Origin: Halorubrum sp.
GTDB taxonomy: Archaea > Halobacteriota > Halobacteria > Halobacteriales > Haloferacaceae
Reading direction: 5' to 3'
Length of the DNA: 36,855 bases
Assembly: GCA_028275105.1 (NCBI GenBank)
Contig: JAQCNI010000043.1
Span: 1 to 36,855, forward strand
A program made the position numbers and the translations under genes. This document shows positions 13,430-20,702 of the stretch, piece by piece; position 1 is the stretch's first letter, and every line of letters starts with the position of its first letter. The notes under the pieces are model-generated. The model ran no database searches and had not been told where the DNA came from. It saw only the letters and a program-made list of their open reading frames with translations.

Positions 13430-13650
13430 TGAGCCTCTCCTCGATCGCAGCGGCCCGCCAGCCGTTGCCGTCGAGGGGACTCGATGGATTTGCGGCCCGC
13501 GGTTCGGCCGGGCGAAGCGACGGATCGTCAGGCCGGACCGACGGATCGTCAGGCCGGACCGACGGATCGTCAGGCCGGACCGACGGATCGTCATCGATAC
13601 CCCGGGGAGCACCGAGAGGTCGTCGCGACGAGGCGGGCTCCCGACAGGAA
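13430..13650. other. Gene-free stretch between leuA and the ilvB promoter
   Basis: Apart from the 21-bp tandem repeat at 13521-13593, nothing is recognised in this stretch. An open reading frame starts at an ATG overlapping the leuA stop, but it is rich in Arg, Ser and Thr, is built largely from the repeat, and runs through the ilvB promoter and leader, so it is not called as a gene. Confidence 0.6.
13521..13593. repeat. 21-bp tandem repeats downstream of leuA
   Basis: Three full copies of a 21-bp unit starting CGGATCGTCAGGCCGGACCG and half of a fourth lie about 90 bases after the leuA stop. They contain the same CGGATCGTC core as the 18-bp repeats before purC. They are directly adjacent, without spacers, so this is not a CRISPR array. 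Confidence 0.9.
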
Positions 13651-13659
13651 TTTATAGAC
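13651..13659 (+). promoter_or_regulatory. TATA box of the ilvB operon
   Basis: TTTATAGAC lies 23-31 bases before the ATG of the leader ORF at 13682 and about 235 bases before ilvB. It is the only strong TATA-like sequence in the leuA-ilvB gap, so the ilvB transcript probably begins near 13680 with a long leader. Confidence 0.65.
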
Positions 13660-13681
13660 GGCCCGTGTTGTCATCGACGAG

Positions 13682-13756
13682 ATGCGACAGCACCGACGGA
13701 TCCGCGCGAGCAGTCCGGACACGGGAGCCGTGGTGCCGACCATCGTAGGGGCTTGA
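13682..13756 (+). CDS. Putative leader peptide of the ilvB operon
   Basis: A 24-residue ORF starts where a leaderless transcript from the TATA box at 13651 should begin. It is basic at the start (MRQHRRIR) and ends GAVVPTIVGA then TGA, so Val-Val and Ile-Val codons come just before the stop. The stop codon sits in the loop of a perfect 5-bp hairpin, GGGGC-TTGA-GCCCC (13748-13761). The remaining 133 bases to ilvB hold no further start with coding character. A role in attenuation or translation-linked control of ilvB in response to branched-chain amino acids is an inference by analogy with bacterial ilv leaders. Confidence 0.5.
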   Translation: MRQHRRIRASSPDTGAVVPTIVGA

Positions 13757-13761
13757 GCCCC
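13748..13761 (+). promoter_or_regulatory. Hairpin over the leader ORF stop codon
   Basis: GGGGC and GCCCC pair around a TTGA loop that contains the TGA stop of the 24-codon leader ORF. A terminating ribosome would cover this hairpin, so the structure could report leader translation. It is followed by CCTTCCTCCCC but not by a T-run. Confidence 0.45.
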
Positions 13762-13889
13762 ACCAACACTCCTTCCTCCCCGACACGGCGCACCGACGAT
13801 CGGCGGACGGACGGGTCTCGCCCCGCACGACCGTCGTTCGGACCGACCGACGCTCGAACCCGCGACACACCCACACACGATACACAACG

Positions 13890-15728
13890 ATGAGCGATTC
13901 AGCAGCACAACCACGAGAGGACGACCCCGAAGGGACCGACACGGCGTCCGATCCGGCCGACGCGGACGGAACGGGCGCGCCGGACGCGACCGGCGACGAG
14001 ACGAATACGGACGGCGACCCGAGGGGAACGGTATCGACGGGCGCTGAGGCCGTCGTCGCCGCCCTCGAGGCGGCCGGCGCGGACACCGCCTTCGGCGTTC
14101 AGGGCGGGGCGATCATGCCCGTCTACGACGCGTTGTTCGACTCCTCGGTCGATCACGTGGTGATGGCCCACGAACAGGGGGCCGCACACGCCGCCGACGC
14201 GTACGGCGTCGTCGCCGGCGAGCCGGGCGTCTGTCTGGCCACTTCCGGCCCGGGCGCGACGAACCTCGTCACGGGGATCGCCGACGCCGACATGGACAGC
14301 GACGCGATGCTCGCGTTGACCGGACAGGTGCCGACGGAGTTCGTCGGTAACGACGCCTTTCAGGAGACCGACACCGTCGGCGTCACCCGCCCGATCACGA
14401 AACACAACTACTTCGCCGGCGAGGCCGACACCGTCGGCGACGTCGTCGGCGAGGCCTTCACGCTCGCCGACGTCGGCCGCCCCGGGCCGACGCTCGTCGA
14501 CCTCCCGAAGGACGTCACGCAGGCCGACACCGAGTCGGCTCCGGGGCCGGCGACGGCACCGCCCGGAACGGATCCGGATCCGAACGCCGAGCCAGACGCC
14601 GTCGAGACGGCGGCCCGCGCGATCGAGGAGGCCGACCGTCCGCTGTGTCTGTTCGGCGGCGGCGTGATCAAGGGCGATGCGAGCGACGCCGCGCGAGCGT
14701 TCGCCCGCACTTTCGAGATCCCCGTCACTACGACGATGCCGGGGATCGGCTCGGTCCCCGAGGGCGACGACCTCTGTCTCTCGTGGGCCGGGATGCATGG
14801 GACCGGCCACGCCAACATGGCGATCACCCATACGGACTGTCTGATCGCCGTCGGGACCCGGTTCGACGACCGGCTGACCGGCGGGATCGACACGTTCGCG
14901 CCGGAGGCCGAGGTCGTCCACATCGACATCGATCCCGCCGAGATCTCGAAGAACGTCCATGCGGACTACCCGCTCATCGGCGACGCCGGGACGGTGCTCG
15001 AACAGCTGACCGCGGCGATCCGTTCCCCGCCCGACGCCGACGAGTGGCGCGAGCGGTGTCTCGAATGGCAGGAGACGTATCCGATGACGTACGCGACGCC
15101 GGACGACGAGCCGCTCAAGCCGCAGTTCGTCGTCGAGGCGTTCGACGAGGCGACCGACGACGACACGATCGTCACGACCGGCGTCGGCCAACACCAGATG
15201 TGGGCCTCCCAGTTCTGGACGTACTCCGAGCCCCGGACGTGGGTCTCCTCGCACGGACTCGGGACGATGGGGTACGGCGTGCCGGCCGCGATCGGCGCGC
15301 GGGTCGCCGCCGACACCATGGGCGACCCGGACCGTGACGTGATCTGCTTCGACGGCGACGGGTCCTTCCTGATGACGATGCAGGAGCTGTCCGTCGCGGT
15401 TCGCGAGGACCTCGACATCACCTTCGCCGTGCTCAACAACGAGTACATCGGGATGGTACGCCAGTGGCAGGACGCGTTTTATGAGGGGCGACACATGGCG
15501 TCCGACTACAACTGGATGCCCGAGTTCGACAAGATGGCCGAGGCGTTCGGCGCGCTCGGGATCCGCGTCGACGGCTACGACGAGGTCGCGCCCGCCGTCG
15601 AGGAGGCGCTCGAATACGACGGCCCCGCGGTGATCGACTTCCACGTCGACCCGGAGGAGAACGTCCTGCCGATGGTGCCGAGCGGCGGAGCGAACGGCCA
15701 GTTCGCGCTTTCGGAGGACCAGCTATGA
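13890..15728 (+). CDS. ilvB: Acetolactate synthase large subunit, IlvB
   Basis: IlvB is the thiamine-diphosphate catalytic subunit that makes acetolactate or acetohydroxybutyrate, the first common step to Val, Leu and Ile. The 612-residue protein has an acidic, probably disordered N-terminal extension of about 45 residues. The PYR domain then begins TGAEAVVAALEAAGADTAFG with the catalytic Glu in AHEQGAAHAADAYG. A central FAD-type domain follows, and the TPP domain has GDGSFLMTMQEL and the later AVLNNEYIGMV. It is the first large gene of ilvB-ilvN-ilvC-leuC-ORF-leuD. The ATG follows ACACGATACACAACG, with no Shine-Dalgarno sequence, although the transcript seems to have a 208-base leader. Confidence 0.96.
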   Translation: MSDSAAQPREDDPEGTDTASDPADADGTGAPDATGDETNTDGDPRGTVSTGAEAVVAALEAAGADTAFGVQGGAIMPVYDALFDSSVDHVVMAHEQGAAHAADAYGVVAGEPGVCLATSGPGATNLVTGIADADMDSDAMLALTGQVPTEFVGNDAFQETDTVGVTRPITKHNYFAGEADTVGDVVGEAFTLADVGRPGPTLVDLPKDVTQADTESAPGPATAPPGTDPDPNAEPDAVETAARAIEEADRPLCLFGGGVIKGDASDAARAFARTFEIPVTTTMPGIGSVPEGDDLCLSWAGMHGTGHANMAITHTDCLIAVGTRFDDRLTGGIDTFAPEAEVVHIDIDPAEISKNVHADYPLIGDAGTVLEQLTAAIRSPPDADEWRERCLEWQETYPMTYATPDDEPLKPQFVVEAFDEATDDDTIVTTGVGQHQMWASQFWTYSEPRTWVSSHGLGTMGYGVPAAIGARVAADTMGDPDRDVICFDGDGSFLMTMQELSVAVREDLDITFAVLNNEYIGMVRQWQDAFYEGRHMASDYNWMPEFDKMAEAFGALGIRVDGYDEVAPAVEEALEYDGPAVIDFHVDPEENVLPMVPSGGANGQFALSEDQL

Positions 15729-16390
15729 GCGGAGAGGGAACCACCGACGGGACGAACGAGATGCCCGGCCCGGCGCCCGAAGAGCGCCCCCACCCGGAAG
15801 GCCGACGGAACTTGGAGGGCCACCGGGTCGATCCCGCCGTCGAGGCGCAACACGACTCACGTCGAGCGGTCCTCTCGGCGCTCGTCGAGGACGAGCCGGG
15901 GGTACTCGCCCGTGTTTCCGGACTCGTCTCCCGGCGACAGTTCAACATCGAGAGCCTGACGGTCGGTCCGACGACCGTCGAGGGCCACTCGCGGATCACG
16001 ATGGTCGTCGAGGAGACCGACCCCGGAATCGACCAGATCGAAAAGCAGATCGCGAAGCTGAAGCCCGTCATCTCGGTCGGCGAGGTGTCCGGCAACGCGG
16101 TGACATCCGAACTCGTCCTGCTCAAAATCCACGGCGCGGAGCCGGACAAGGTCCATGCCGTCACCGAAATGTACGACGGTCGGACGCTCGATGCCGGGCC
16201 GGAGACGATCACCGTCCGGCTCACCGGCGACGAGTCGAAGATCGACGACGCGCTCGACGCGTTCGAGCAGTTCGGGATCATCGAGATCGCCCGGACCGGA
16301 CAGACTGCGCTGGCACGCGGGAACGTGCCGACGGCCCCAGGAGAGAAACCCGGAACGGCCGGCGAACCGACGACCCCGACGAGCGACTGA
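15725..16390 (+). CDS. ilvN: Acetolactate synthase small (regulatory) subunit, IlvN
   Basis: IlvN binds valine and activates and feedback-controls IlvB. The 221-residue protein has a variable N-terminal extension of about 45 residues, then an ACT domain with LVEDEPGVLARVSGLVSRRQ and FNIESLTVGPT, followed by the ALS_ss_C dimerisation domain (TSELVLLKIHGAEPDKVHAV). The start overlaps the ilvB stop as ATGA, so the two subunits are translationally coupled, as expected for a fixed-ratio complex. The C-terminal 25 residues are a Pro/Thr-rich tail without recognised function. Confidence 0.95.
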   Translation: MSGEGTTDGTNEMPGPAPEERPHPEGRRNLEGHRVDPAVEAQHDSRRAVLSALVEDEPGVLARVSGLVSRRQFNIESLTVGPTTVEGHSRITMVVEETDPGIDQIEKQIAKLKPVISVGEVSGNAVTSELVLLKIHGAEPDKVHAVTEMYDGRTLDAGPETITVRLTGDESKIDDALDAFEQFGIIEIARTGQTALARGNVPTAPGEKPGTAGEPTTPTSD

Positions 16391-16417: not shown

Positions 16418-17473
16418 ATGCCAACCGACGACACATACACGTTCGATTCGACAGTATACTACGACGAAGATGCCGACCCGGACCACATTGTCCACAAGAC
16501 CGTCGCCGTGCTCGGCTACGGCTCGCAGGGGCACGCCCACGCACAGAACCTCTCCGAGAGCGGGGTCGACGTCGTCGTCGGCCTCCGTGAGGGGAGTTCT
16601 TCGCGGGCGGCCGCGGAGAACGACGGCCTGCGCGTGGCGACCCCGGCGGACGCCGCGGCCGAGGCCGACATCGTGAGCGTGCTCGTCCCCGACACGGTCC
16701 AGCCGGACGTGTACGAGGCGGCGATCGAGCCGAACCTGGAGTCGGGCGACACCCTCCAGTTCGCCCACGGGTTCAACATCCACTACAACCAGATCCAGCC
16801 GCCCGAGGACGTCGACGTGACGATGGTCGCGCCGAAGTCGCCGGGCCACCTCGTGCGCCGAAACTACGAGAACGACGAGGGGACGCCCGGCCTGCTTGCG
16901 GTGTACCAGGACGCGACCGGCGAGGCCCACGACGAGGGGCTTGCGTACGCGGCCGCCATCGGCTGTACGCGCGCCGGCGTCGTCGAGACCTCGTTCCGCG
17001 AGGAGACGGAGACCGACCTGTTCGGCGAGCAGGCGGTGTTGTGTGGCGGCGTCACGTCGCTCGTGAAACAGGCGTACGAGACGCTCGTCGACGCCGGCTA
17101 CTCGCCGGAGATGGCGTACTTCGAGTGTCTCAACGAACTCAAGCTCATCGTCGACCTGATGTACGAGGGCGGGCTCGGCAAGATGTGGGACTCAGTCTCT
17201 GACACCGCCGAGTATGGCGGACTGACGAAGGGCGACGTCGTCGTCGACGAACACGCCCGCGAGAACATGGAAGCGATCCTCGAACAGGTCCAAGACGGGA
17301 CGTTCGCCCACGAATGGATCGCGGAGAACCAGGCCGGTCGCCCCTCGTACACCCAGCTCCGGACCGCGGAGAAAAACCGGGAGATCGAGGCCGTCGGCGA
17401 GGAACTGCGCGAGCTGTTCGCGTGGCAGGAGGCCGACGAGGACGAGGAGGAGTCCGCCGAGGTGACGGCGTAA
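16418..17473 (+). CDS. ilvC: Ketol-acid reductoisomerase, IlvC
   Basis: IlvC rearranges and reduces acetolactate with NAD(P)H and Mg2+. The 351-residue length is that of class I KARI. The Rossmann fingerprint [13 protein letters not shown] is near residue 31, and the cofactor loop has [18 protein letters not shown] and the C-terminal knotted domain with metal-binding Glu/Asp ([11 protein letters not shown], then [17 protein letters not shown]) are present. A 10-residue acidic haloarchaeal tail follows. It lies 27 bases after ilvN and its ATG is preceded by ACACCATACACA, nearly the same words as before ilvB. The stop overlaps leuC as TAATG. Confidence 0.96.
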
Positions 17474-18933
17474 TGAGCGAGGACACGCTGTACGACAAGG
17501 TGTGGGACCGACACAAGGTGACCGAGCTGCCGAACGGACAGGACCAGCTGTTCGTGGGGCTCCACCTCGTCCATGAGGTCACCAGCCCGCAGGCGTTCGG
17601 CATGCTTCGCGAGCGGGACCTCGACGTCGCGTATCCCGGCCGGACGTTCGCGACCACCGACCACATCGCGCCCACCGAGGCGGACAAGCGGGAACGACCG
17701 CTCGGCGACGATCAGGCCGAGGAGATGCTCTCGGCGCTCGAACGCAACACGAGCGAGAACGGGATCACCTTCTTTGGGTTCGAGTCCGGCAAACAGGGGA
17801 TCACCCACGTCGTCGCCCCCGAGCTGGGGCTTTCCCGGCCGGGGATGACCGTGGCGTGTGGGGACAGCCACACCGCGACCCACGGCGCGTTCGGCTCCAT
17901 CGGCGTCGGGATCGGGACCTCACAGATCCGCGACGTGCTCGCGACCGGCTGTATCGCCGCGGACAAACAGCAGGTGCGACGCATAAACGTCGAGGGCTCG
18001 CTCGGCGAGGGCGTCTACGCCAAGGACGTCATCATGAAGATCATCCAGGACCTCGGCGTCGACGGCGGGGTCGGCCACGTGTACGAGTACGGCGGCCCCG
18101 CGATCGAGGCGCTCGACATGGAGGGGCGGCTCGCGGTGTGTAACATGTCGATCGAGGGCGGCGCCCGCGCCGGCTACATCAACCCGGACGAAACGACCTA
18201 CGAGTACCTTGAGGGACGGGAGTACGCCCCCGAGGGCGACGCCTTCGAGGAGCGCAAGGCGTACTGGGAGTCGATCGCGTCGGACGCGGACGCCGAGTAC
18301 GACGACGTCGTCACCGTCGACGCCGACGGGGTCGACCCGCTCATCACGTGGGGGATCAACCCGGGCCAGGTGATCGAGATCTCCGACACCGTCCCGCATC
18401 CCGACGCGTTCGAGGACCGGACGGACCGGGAGGCGGCCGAGTCGGCGCTCGATCACATGGAGATCGACCCCGGCCAGTCGATGCTCGGCTACGACGTCGA
18501 CGTCGCGTTCCTCGGGACCTGTACCAACGGTCGCGTCTCCGACTTCGCGGAGGCGGCGAAGGTCTTGGAGGGGGAAACGGTCGACGATGGCGTCCGCGCG
18601 CTTGCCGTTCCCGGCTCCGAGACCGTCCGCAAGCAGTGTGAGGCGCGAGGGATCGACGAGACGTTCATCAACGCCGGATTCCAGTGGCGCCGCGCCGGCT
18701 GTTCGATGTGTCTCGCGATGAACGACGACAGCCTCGTCGACGACGAGGTGTGTGCGTCCTCCTCGAACCGGAACTTCGTCGGCCGGCAGGGGTCGAAGGA
18801 GGGTCGAACCGTGCTGATGAACCCCACGATGGTCGCGGCCGCGGCGGTCGAGGGGCAGGTTGCCGACGCGCGAGAGTATCTCGACGACGGGCCGACCGGC
18901 GGCGCCGGCGGCGTCGAGGAGGTGGCCGACTGA
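17473..18933 (+). CDS. leuC: 3-Isopropylmalate dehydratase large subunit, LeuC
   Basis: LeuC with LeuD isomerises 2- to 3-isopropylmalate using a 4Fe-4S cluster. The 486-residue protein is of the bacterial-type length. It has GDSHTATHGAFGSIGVGIGT in the N-terminal half and the cluster cysteines in FLGTCTNGR and AGCSMCLAMN, with GCIAADKQQ before them. Substrate-binding SSNRNFVGRQG is intact. The start overlaps the ilvC stop by one base (TAATG) and the stop overlaps the start of a 32-residue ORF in the same manner (TGATG). Translation along this part of the operon is therefore likely coupled throughout. Confidence 0.96.
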   Translation: MSEDTLYDKVWDRHKVTELPNGQDQLFVGLHLVHEVTSPQAFGMLRERDLDVAYPGRTFATTDHIAPTEADKRERPLGDDQAEEMLSALERNTSENGITFFGFESGKQGITHVVAPELGLSRPGMTVACGDSHTATHGAFGSIGVGIGTSQIRDVLATGCIAADKQQVRRINVEGSLGEGVYAKDVIMKIIQDLGVDGGVGHVYEYGGPAIEALDMEGRLAVCNMSIEGGARAGYINPDETTYEYLEGREYAPEGDAFEERKAYWESIASDADAEYDDVVTVDADGVDPLITWGINPGQVIEISDTVPHPDAFEDRTDREAAESALDHMEIDPGQSMLGYDVDVAFLGTCTNGRVSDFAEAAKVLEGETVDDGVRALAVPGSETVRKQCEARGIDETFINAGFQWRRAGCSMCLAMNDDSLVDDEVCASSSNRNFVGRQGSKEGRTVLMNPTMVAAAAVEGQVADAREYLDDGPTGGAGGVEEVAD

Positions 18934-19031
18934 TGGCCCCCGATGCCGACGCGGGCGGCGATTTCCGTCGTGTATCGGAGTCACACGACGACGTCCTCGC
19001 CATCGGTCTCACCGGGGGTGAGACGCGATGA
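18933..19031 (+). CDS. 32-residue micro-ORF joining leuC and leuD
   Basis: This ORF uses the last base of the leuC stop (TGATG) as the first of its ATG, and its TGA stop overlaps the leuD ATG as ATGA. It thus fills the 94-base gap between the two subunit genes exactly. The peptide begins MAPDADAGGDFRRVSESHDD and ends IGLTGGETR. It is acidic overall, as in real haloarchaeal proteins, and has no membrane segment. It may be a true small protein or only a bridge that carries ribosomes from leuC to leuD. I recognise no family. Confidence 0.55.
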   Translation: MAPDADAGGDFRRVSESHDDVLAIGLTGGETR

Positions 19032-19633
19032 GCGAAGACCAGCACATCACCGACGTCTCCGGTACCGGCGTGCCGATTCCGGGCGACGACGTCGATACCG
19101 ACCAGATCCTGCCGGCGAAGTTCATGAAGGAGGTCACGTTCGACAACATGGCGGACTACCTCTTTTACGACGTCCGGCGGGACGACGACGGCGAGTTCAA
19201 CGATCACCCGCTCAACCGCTTTGCGGGCGCGTCGATCGGGGTCGTCAACTCCAACTTCGGCTGTGGCTCCTCGCGGGAGCACGCGCCCCAAGCGATGATG
19301 CGGTGGGGAATCGACGGCGTCGTCGGCGAGTCGTACGCCGAGATCTTTCGGGACAACTGTAAGTCGCTCGGGATCCCGGCCGTCACGGCCGACCACGAGA
19401 CGGTGACGGCACTCCAGACGTGGATCGAGGACAACCCGGACGGCGACGTCGAGATCGACGTCGAGACCGAGACCGTCACCTACGGCGGGACGACGATCGA
19501 CGTCGACATCGACACGGGGATGAAGGAGGCGCTCGTCGACGGAATCTGGGATACGACCGCGTTGATGTACTCCAACCGGAGCAAGGTCGACGCGGCCGTC
19601 GACGATCTGCCGTACGTCGCGGGCGACGACTGA
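19028..19633 (+). CDS. leuD: 3-Isopropylmalate dehydratase small subunit, LeuD
   Basis: LeuD is the swivelling small subunit that completes the LeuC active site. The 201-residue protein has GDDVDTDQILPAKFMKEVTF near the N-terminus and the substrate-recognition block NSNFGCGSSREHAPQA near residue 75, then FRDNCKSLGIPAV. The length fits bacterial-type LeuD. It is the last gene of the tightly overlapped ilvB-to-leuD run; leuB follows after 76 bases with its own possible promoter. Confidence 0.95.
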   Translation: MSEDQHITDVSGTGVPIPGDDVDTDQILPAKFMKEVTFDNMADYLFYDVRRDDDGEFNDHPLNRFAGASIGVVNSNFGCGSSREHAPQAMMRWGIDGVVGESYAEIFRDNCKSLGIPAVTADHETVTALQTWIEDNPDGDVEIDVETETVTYGGTTIDVDIDTGMKEALVDGIWDTTALMYSNRSKVDAAVDDLPYVAGDD

Positions 19634-19709: not shown

Positions 19710-20702
19710 ATGACCGAACGCATCACCGTCATCGAGGGTGACGGGATCGGACGGGAAGTGATCCCGGCGGCGATCGACGTACTGGAGGCGCTCACCCCGG
19801 AATTCGAGTTCGTCACGGCCGACGCCGGCGACGCCGTGAAGGACGCGACCGGCGAGGCGCTGCCGGCCGAGACCTACGAACTGGCGGCGAGCACCGACGC
19901 GACGCTGTTCGGGGCGGCGGGCGACACCGCGGCCGACGTGATCCTCCCGCTCCGGGAGGCGGTCGGATCGTTCGTCAACGTCCGGCCCGCGAGGGCGTAT
20001 CCCGGCGTCGACGCGCTCCGCCCCGAGACGGACGTCGTCTTCCTCCGCGAGAACACCGAGGGCGTCTACTCGGGCCACGAGGCCCGGCTTAGCGACGACC
20101 TCTCGACGCTCACCCGCGTGGTCACCGCCTCGGCGTCGCGCGAACTCGCCGAGTACGCCTGCGAGTTCGTCGCCGACGGGCGCGGCCCCGGCCACCGGGA
20201 CGGGTTCACCGTCGTCCACAAGGCGAACGTGATGCGCGAGACCGACGGCCGCTTCCGCGAGGAGGCGCTCGCGGTCGCCGACGACCGCGACGTCGACGCC
20301 GACGAGGAGCTGATGGACGCGTTCGCGACGAAGCTCCCGCTCGACCCGACGCAGTACGGCGTCATCGTCTGTCCGAACCTCGCGGGCGACGTGCTTTCGG
20401 ACCTCGCGGCCGGGCTCGTCGGCGGGCTCGGGCTCCTCCCGTCCGCGAACGTCGGCCACGACAACGCGCTGTTCGAGCCGGTTCACGGCACCGCGCCGGA
20501 CATCGCCGGCGAGGGCGTCGCGAACCCGACGGCTGCGGTGCTATCGGCTGCGATGCTGGTCGAGTACCTCGGCCATGTCGAGGCGGGCGATCGCGTCCGC
20601 GACGCGGTCGAGTCCGTACTGTCCGACGGCCCGCGGACGGGGGACCTCGACGGCGACGCGACGACCGACGAGGTCACTGCGGCCATCATCGACCGGCTGT
20701 AG
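19710..20702 (+). CDS. leuB: 3-Isopropylmalate dehydrogenase, LeuB
   Basis: LeuB oxidises and decarboxylates 3-isopropylmalate with NAD+. The 330-residue protein is of the beta-decarboxylating dehydrogenase family: [13 protein letters not shown] at the N-terminus, [13 protein letters not shown] with substrate Arg residues, [12 protein letters not shown], the catalytic Lys in [13 protein letters not shown], the metal-binding Asp pair in [14 protein letters not shown], and the adenine-binding [13 protein letters not shown]. The family also contains isocitrate and homoisocitrate dehydrogenases; the leu neighbours favour LeuB. It completes the leucine branch begun by leuA at 12211. Confidence 0.93.

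Follow-up and report, generated by a model that had tools for sequence, protein, structure and literature searches.

A conserved mini-ORF ending in a hairpin before the ilvB operon of Halobacteria, a probable archaeal counterpart of the bacterial leader-peptide attenuators

The question raised by this locus is whether a very short open reading frame, whose stop codon lies within a hairpin ahead of ilvB, could control the branched-chain amino acid genes of an archaeon through its own translation. The DNA analysed, called the window hereafter, is a stretch of 36,855 nucleotides from Halorubrum sp., and the leader elements and operon genes located in it are on the forward (+) strand. The genes downstream of the leader encode the large subunit of acetolactate synthase (ilvB, 13890-15728; TIGR00118), its small subunit (ilvN, 15725-16390; TIGR00119), ketol-acid reductoisomerase (ilvC, 16418-17473; TIGR00465) and the large and small subunits of 3-isopropylmalate dehydratase (leuC, 17476-18933 with an approximate start, TIGR00170; leuD, 19028-19633, NF002458), each of them matching its model above the cut-off. 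They are followed by a leuB-type 3-isopropylmalate dehydrogenase gene (19710-20702), named from the operon context since its best NCBIfam match, TIGR02088, falls below the cut-off of that model. With leuA located directly upstream of the leader, this gene content indicates an operon devoted to the synthesis of valine, isoleucine and leucine.

Scanning positions 13430-13890, between leuA and ilvB, reveals a single TATA hexamer scoring at least 5/6, the sequence TTTATA at 13651-13656. This putative leader promoter is located 31 nt 5' of an ATG at 13682, a spacing which implies that the leader mRNA would be leaderless. The ATG opens a reading frame of 24 codons, MRQHRRIRASSPDTGAVVPTIVGA*, extending from 13682 to 13756 in a frame that is kept in all relatives. 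Its TGA stop codon (13754-13756) occupies the loop of a 5-bp hairpin, GGGGC-TTGA-GCCCC (13748-13761, called hairpin B), and the codons preceding the hairpin, ATC GTA (13742-13747), encode Ile-Val with a rare valine codon. Folding predicts a further pairing within the reading frame, helix A, between GCACC-G-ACGG (13690-13699), which is the version of the window's own species, and CCGT-GGTGC (13728-13736), a segment placed directly 5' of the cognate codons and recovered in relatives as well. On the other side of the hairpin, a G-free tract (13762-13781) carries a C/T box, CTCCTTCCTC, about 10 nt 3' of the hairpin, and constitutes a candidate pause or termination region. The ilvB gene itself (ATG at 13890) has no Shine-Dalgarno sequence, its upstream sequence being ACACACGATACACAACGATG. 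The lone strong TATA box at leaderless distance, the 24-codon ORF ending in a hairpin loop and the missing Shine-Dalgarno sequence had all been put forward in the original prediction, and all were confirmed. On the sequence side, nothing points to a transcript start close to ilvB, which would speak against that prediction, no TATA box being found near this gene, either in the window or in those Halorubrum relatives that were checked. The gap separating leuA from the leader promoter also contains a perfect 21-bp tandem repeat in 3.6 copies, CGACGGATCGTCAGGCCGGAC, at 13518-13593.

A comparison set of 80 ilvB loci was assembled from species-representative genomes. Two of them (L061 and L086) begin inside or at ilvB and could not be judged, leaving 78 loci with upstream sequence. 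A mini-ORF with its stop codon in or at a GGGG..CCCC hairpin is found in 78 of these 78 loci. The leader finder that singled out this element asked for nothing more than a hairpin holding a stop codon and carrying GGGG on its 5' side. The exact sequence AT[CT]-GTA-GGG-G is present in the window and in 77 of the fetched loci (78 with upstream sequence), ATYGTAGGGG having served as the search anchor in a separate alignment of the loci; the sole variant lacking it is L088, whose leader ends RVVVGAV*. The positive genera include Halorubrum, Haloferax, Halobellus, Haloarcula, Haladaptatus, Haloquadratum, Halobaculum and Halonotius. A covariance model built from 47 leaders matches 381 of the 391 genomes of the class and 85 of its 86 genera at E <= 0.01, with about 4 matches in 391 expected by chance and with a valS leader as the best match instead in some lineages. 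Outside Halobacteria, about 165 genomes gave only two weak matches to this model (L281 and L282), both rejected as leaders because they lie within coding sequence. The ORF and the hairpin, whose absence from close relatives would weigh against the original prediction, are in fact conserved across the class. Two additional loci deserve mention. In genome G160, a second full leader (L171) ending ...RLIVGV* and followed by its hairpin precedes a short interrupted ORF and no ilvB; it is perhaps the remnant of a lost operon copy. In genome G205, a second ilvB paralogue (L173) has a leader ending VAIIGAAQ*, with isoleucine codons and no GTA before the hairpin.

As to the translation of the ORF, the evidence lies in its reading frame. 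An ATG located 29-34 nt downstream of a TATA-like box and open up to the hairpin exists in the frame of the ORF in 68 of the 78 loci, and in either other frame in none of the 78; from this comparison, the leader frame is judged to be under selection. Leader length varies from 16 to 55 residues across genera; 30 Halorubrum leaders all have 24 codons, their stop alternating between TAA and TGA. Among these 30 leaders, each of the three positions drifts in codons 4-14, with no amino-acid constraint; codons 15-21 differ mostly by third-position changes, and GTA GGG is invariant. Drift in the middle combined with fixed last codons fits a sequence that is read by the ribosome, not a working protein, and six leader peptides compared with Pfam and NCBIfam matched 0 families. 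The end of the leader is fixed as Ile-Val-Gly, and the main regulatory codons are an Ile-Ile-Val run at the hairpin, often extended to Leu-Ile-Ile-Val. The valine codon in question is GTA, which accounts for 0.4% of the 3518 valine codons of the corresponding ilvB genes. For isoleucine, the leaders often use ATT, a codon that represents 6.8% of the isoleucine codons of these genes. Since GTA is incompletely paired in several loci, its invariance is not explained by pairing alone. The original prediction had proposed to look for conserved codons among relatives; the Ile-Val codons are kept, GTA included.

In terms of RNA structure, hairpin B is best appreciated over the whole set of loci. In the window alone it exceeds chance by a modest margin (z -1.75, matched by 12 of 200 shuffles), and the fold of the whole leader is not unusual against chance (z -0.62). 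Over the 78 loci, the mean z is -2.67, with z < -1 in 97% of them; the rating of the hairpin above chance comes from this conservation in relatives and not from the single sequence. Compensatory changes in the stem at 13748-13761, which the original prediction had proposed to look for, were observed in part: the inner pair next to the invariant GGGG/CCCC core varies in a compensatory manner (C-G, T-A and once G-C), and the rest is mostly invariant. Loci devoid of this inner pair tend to carry outer GTA/TAC pairs. Helix A, detected with RNAalifold in Halorubrum, pairs the start-codon end of the ORF with the segment just 5' of the isoleucine codons. Its 5' arm begins just past the AUG in the relatives, the window's own species displaying a shifted version. 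The two arms co-evolve, as each pairs better with its own partner than with those of other species (44 representatives, p 2e-4, the lowest value possible with 5000 permutations).

Downstream of the hairpin, 81% of the 78 loci have no G in the first 13 nt, a figure that drops to 0-5% for windows further along; T is most frequent between +10 and +14, where its share is 45%. No T-tract terminator is apparent, since TTTT occurs within 30 nt past the hairpin in 14 of the 78 loci and in the next 30 nt in 13 of the 78, that is without enrichment. Archaeal terminators differ from bacterial ones, and the absent T tract counts for this reason only against a terminator of the bacterial type. The search for an antiterminator, comparing the 3' arm of helix A with the 40 nt downstream, gave no matched-arm signal (p 0.95). 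Beyond the hairpin region, 90 nt are structured no better than chance (mean z about 0). Finally, five loci submitted to cmscan against the Rfam covariance models produced no relevant match, T-box included.

Weaker second matches of the covariance model led to related leaders in front of valS and ileS. The valS leaders, present in some lineages only, end in VxVGA or VVGA, without isoleucine (L184-L191, L196, L203, L211 and L212), and in two of them (L196 and L203) the stop is located just past the hairpin instead of in its loop. A strongly conserved block, CCCCGTTTCGACGGATGTATTGTCGCCGACCAG, was also observed between the hairpin and valS in L184-L191, which belong to several genomes of one family. 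The ileS leaders, found in two genomes (L174 and L213), end in S-L-I-I-A-G-Q* or P-I-I-A-G-Q* and have no valine at the hairpin; L173, once a candidate for this group, was rejected because its translation is that of the ilvB paralogue mentioned above. The genome to which the window belongs apparently has no leader before either valS or ileS. Upstream of pheS, leaders passed the filter in 21 of 28 loci (L245-L272), with GFGFFF or PFF as typical ends, and that of the window's own genome (L268) reads MASEHATGGIARGTDGDAFGPFFE*. In some of them the stop codon falls within a strong hairpin, GCCCGG-TGAC-CCGGGC; these stop-codon hairpins are uneven, with a mean z of -0.88. One type of trpS is preceded, in 8 of 9 loci (L283-L290), by a leader containing WRW, or WRWW in some cases, whose tryptophan codons fall in the loop closed by a strong conserved stem, AGTCCGCTC..GAGCGGACA. 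This layout differs from that of ilvB, and a ribosome stalled there would disrupt the hairpin too. No leader was seen at leuS (7 loci) or trpE (25 loci).

The composition of the last 15 residues follows the downstream gene. Phenylalanine represents 25% of these residues in the pheS leaders; isoleucine and valine represent 12.6% and 22.5% in the ilvB leaders and 0.5% and 15.9% in the valS leaders; tryptophan reaches 8.3% in the trpS leaders and is 0 in the other four leader sets. The background in the IlvB protein is 3.2% F, 3.8% I, 8.0% V and 1.6% W. A run of cognate codons can be recognized beside a hairpin in the predicted leaders of ilvB, valS, ileS, pheS and trpS. Two of these leaders have a counterpart in the published transcript maps of Haloferax volcanii, in which uORFs of 26 aa before pheS and of 23 aa before a trpS are supported by transcription start sites (PMC4983044, Table 2). 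The gene and the size of these long-5'-UTR uORFs match the pheS and trpS leaders found here; in that study, whose scope was 5'-UTRs of 150-250 nt, they were not read as attenuators and no ilvB leader was listed.

Taken as a whole, the comparative evidence strongly supports the sensing of codons by the leader, and control of the branched-chain amino acid genes through translation, already proposed in the original prediction, is supported as the best reading, refined here to the Ile-Ile-Val run at the hairpin. It is probable, in our judgement, that this codon-sensing leader is an archaeal counterpart of the bacterial leader-peptide attenuators, with transcription attenuation as its output, the latter step being the inferred one. 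Transcription would begin at or beside the leader AUG, as the TATA position suggests, and a ribosome would load on this leaderless AUG and melt helix A. To complete the ORF, this ribosome would have to decode isoleucine, valine and often leucine codons, the rare GTA among them, directly before hairpin B, as can be read from the codons themselves. When charged tRNA is plentiful, the ribosome would reach the stop codon in the hairpin and leave, hairpin B would re-form behind the RNA polymerase, and transcription would stop or fall strongly at the G-free C/T tract. When isoleucine or valine tRNA is uncharged, the ribosome would stall on the Ile-Val codons. Ribosomes cover roughly 12-13 nt past the A-site codon; hairpin B overlaps the stop codon and its 5' arm starts 6 nt past the start of the isoleucine codon. 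By this geometry, the leading edge of the stalled ribosome would cover the 5' arm GGGGC, so that the position of the hairpin makes it preventable in principle, and the RNA polymerase would continue into ilvBNC-leuCDB. Leaders with other codons would work likewise for valS, ileS, pheS and trpS. Two observations favour attenuation of transcription over an effect on the translation of ilvB. Among the loci, the spacing between hairpin and ilvB varies between 52 and 361 nt, and in H. volcanii a hairpin alone is able to end transcription, having terminated 59% of the transcripts of a reporter in vivo (PMC7237163).

Several points count against this attenuation reading, namely the lack of a T5-type terminator and of an antiterminator, the uneven pheS hairpins and the patchy distribution of the valS and ileS leaders, both apparently missing from the window's own genome. 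As neither a T tract nor an antiterminator was found, the same codon-sensing leader could act instead on mRNA stability or on ilvB translation, a stalled or released ribosome altering decay or the access to the ilvB start. The lack of a canonical T-tract terminator past the hairpin would agree with such an output, as would the missing Shine-Dalgarno sequence of ilvB and the 20-30 nt 5' of its start, which are well conserved within Halorubrum. It is nevertheless considered unlikely in view of the variable distance separating hairpin and ilvB and of the 90 nt past the hairpin region, unstructured beyond chance.

The remaining explanations dispense with codon sensing. The conservation of the last residues at the amino-acid level might suggest that the C-terminal IIVGA/IVGV is an arrest peptide sensing a branched-chain amino acid in the exit tunnel, in the manner of TnaC with tryptophan. 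These residues vary, however, with the downstream gene (FFF, WRW, VVGA, IIAGQ), and the GTA codon itself is kept, not valine alone, as codon sensing predicts; an arrest peptide is thus improbable. Even less credit can be given to a DNA operator, in which a regulator, for instance an Lrp-type protein, would bind the palindrome, the ORF being incidental. Even if GGGGC/GCCCC is a dyad, the spacing of its half-sites is variable among the aligned loci, all of them keep the frame together with a stop in that frame within or at the dyad, and the codon content tracks the downstream gene. A stable small protein encoded beside ilvB would account for a conserved ORF with its own promoter; the unconstrained codons 4-14, the differences in length between genera and the failure to match any Pfam or NCBIfam family make it highly implausible.

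The codon-sensing attenuator favoured here resembles well-known systems. Leader-peptide attenuation is a classic bacterial mechanism, and ribosome-mediated attenuators with leader peptides control ilvGMEDA (IlvL), ilvBN (IvbL), pheST (PheM) and trp. The likeness lies in a short ORF whose codons call for the amino acid that the downstream genes synthesize or charge, in the RNA hairpins next to it and in the kinds of genes that follow. The haloarchaeal leader differs in being archaeal, in its presumed leaderless initiation and in the stop codon inside the hairpin, as well as in having no detected antiterminator, no U-tract terminator and no sequence relation to the bacterial attenuators. In the tnaC leader of E. 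coli, a ribosome stalled at the end of the leader ORF masks RNA needed for factor-dependent termination. This leader senses free tryptophan via the nascent peptide, whereas codon identity in the haloarchaeal leader points to tRNA charging. T-box riboswitches likewise place aminoacyl-tRNA synthetase and branched-chain amino acid genes under the control of tRNA charging, but they bind tRNA directly without translation, and no Rfam family matched the haloarchaeal leader. Also comparable is the ilvB-II motif/uORF of the Corynebacterium ilvBNC operon, a bacterial case of a conserved uORF before ilvB with a role in attenuation (PMC10272879).

Full-text searches of the open-licence PMC literature gave no case of leader-peptide attenuation in archaea. 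With a slight inclination in its favour, it can be proposed that Halobacteria independently evolved a family of codon-sensing leader-attenuators for the ilvB operon, pheS and trpS, joined by valS and ileS in part of the lineages. Each would consist of a leaderless mini-ORF with cognate codons at a hairpin, on which a stalled ribosome would block an archaeal termination or pausing signal without an antiterminator. If true, Archaea would for the first time have been shown to use leader-peptide attenuation, and the convergence with bacterial attenuation would be striking. These class-wide leaders, in which the position of the ribosome should set the fate of the transcript, are directly testable in the tractable model Haloferax volcanii.
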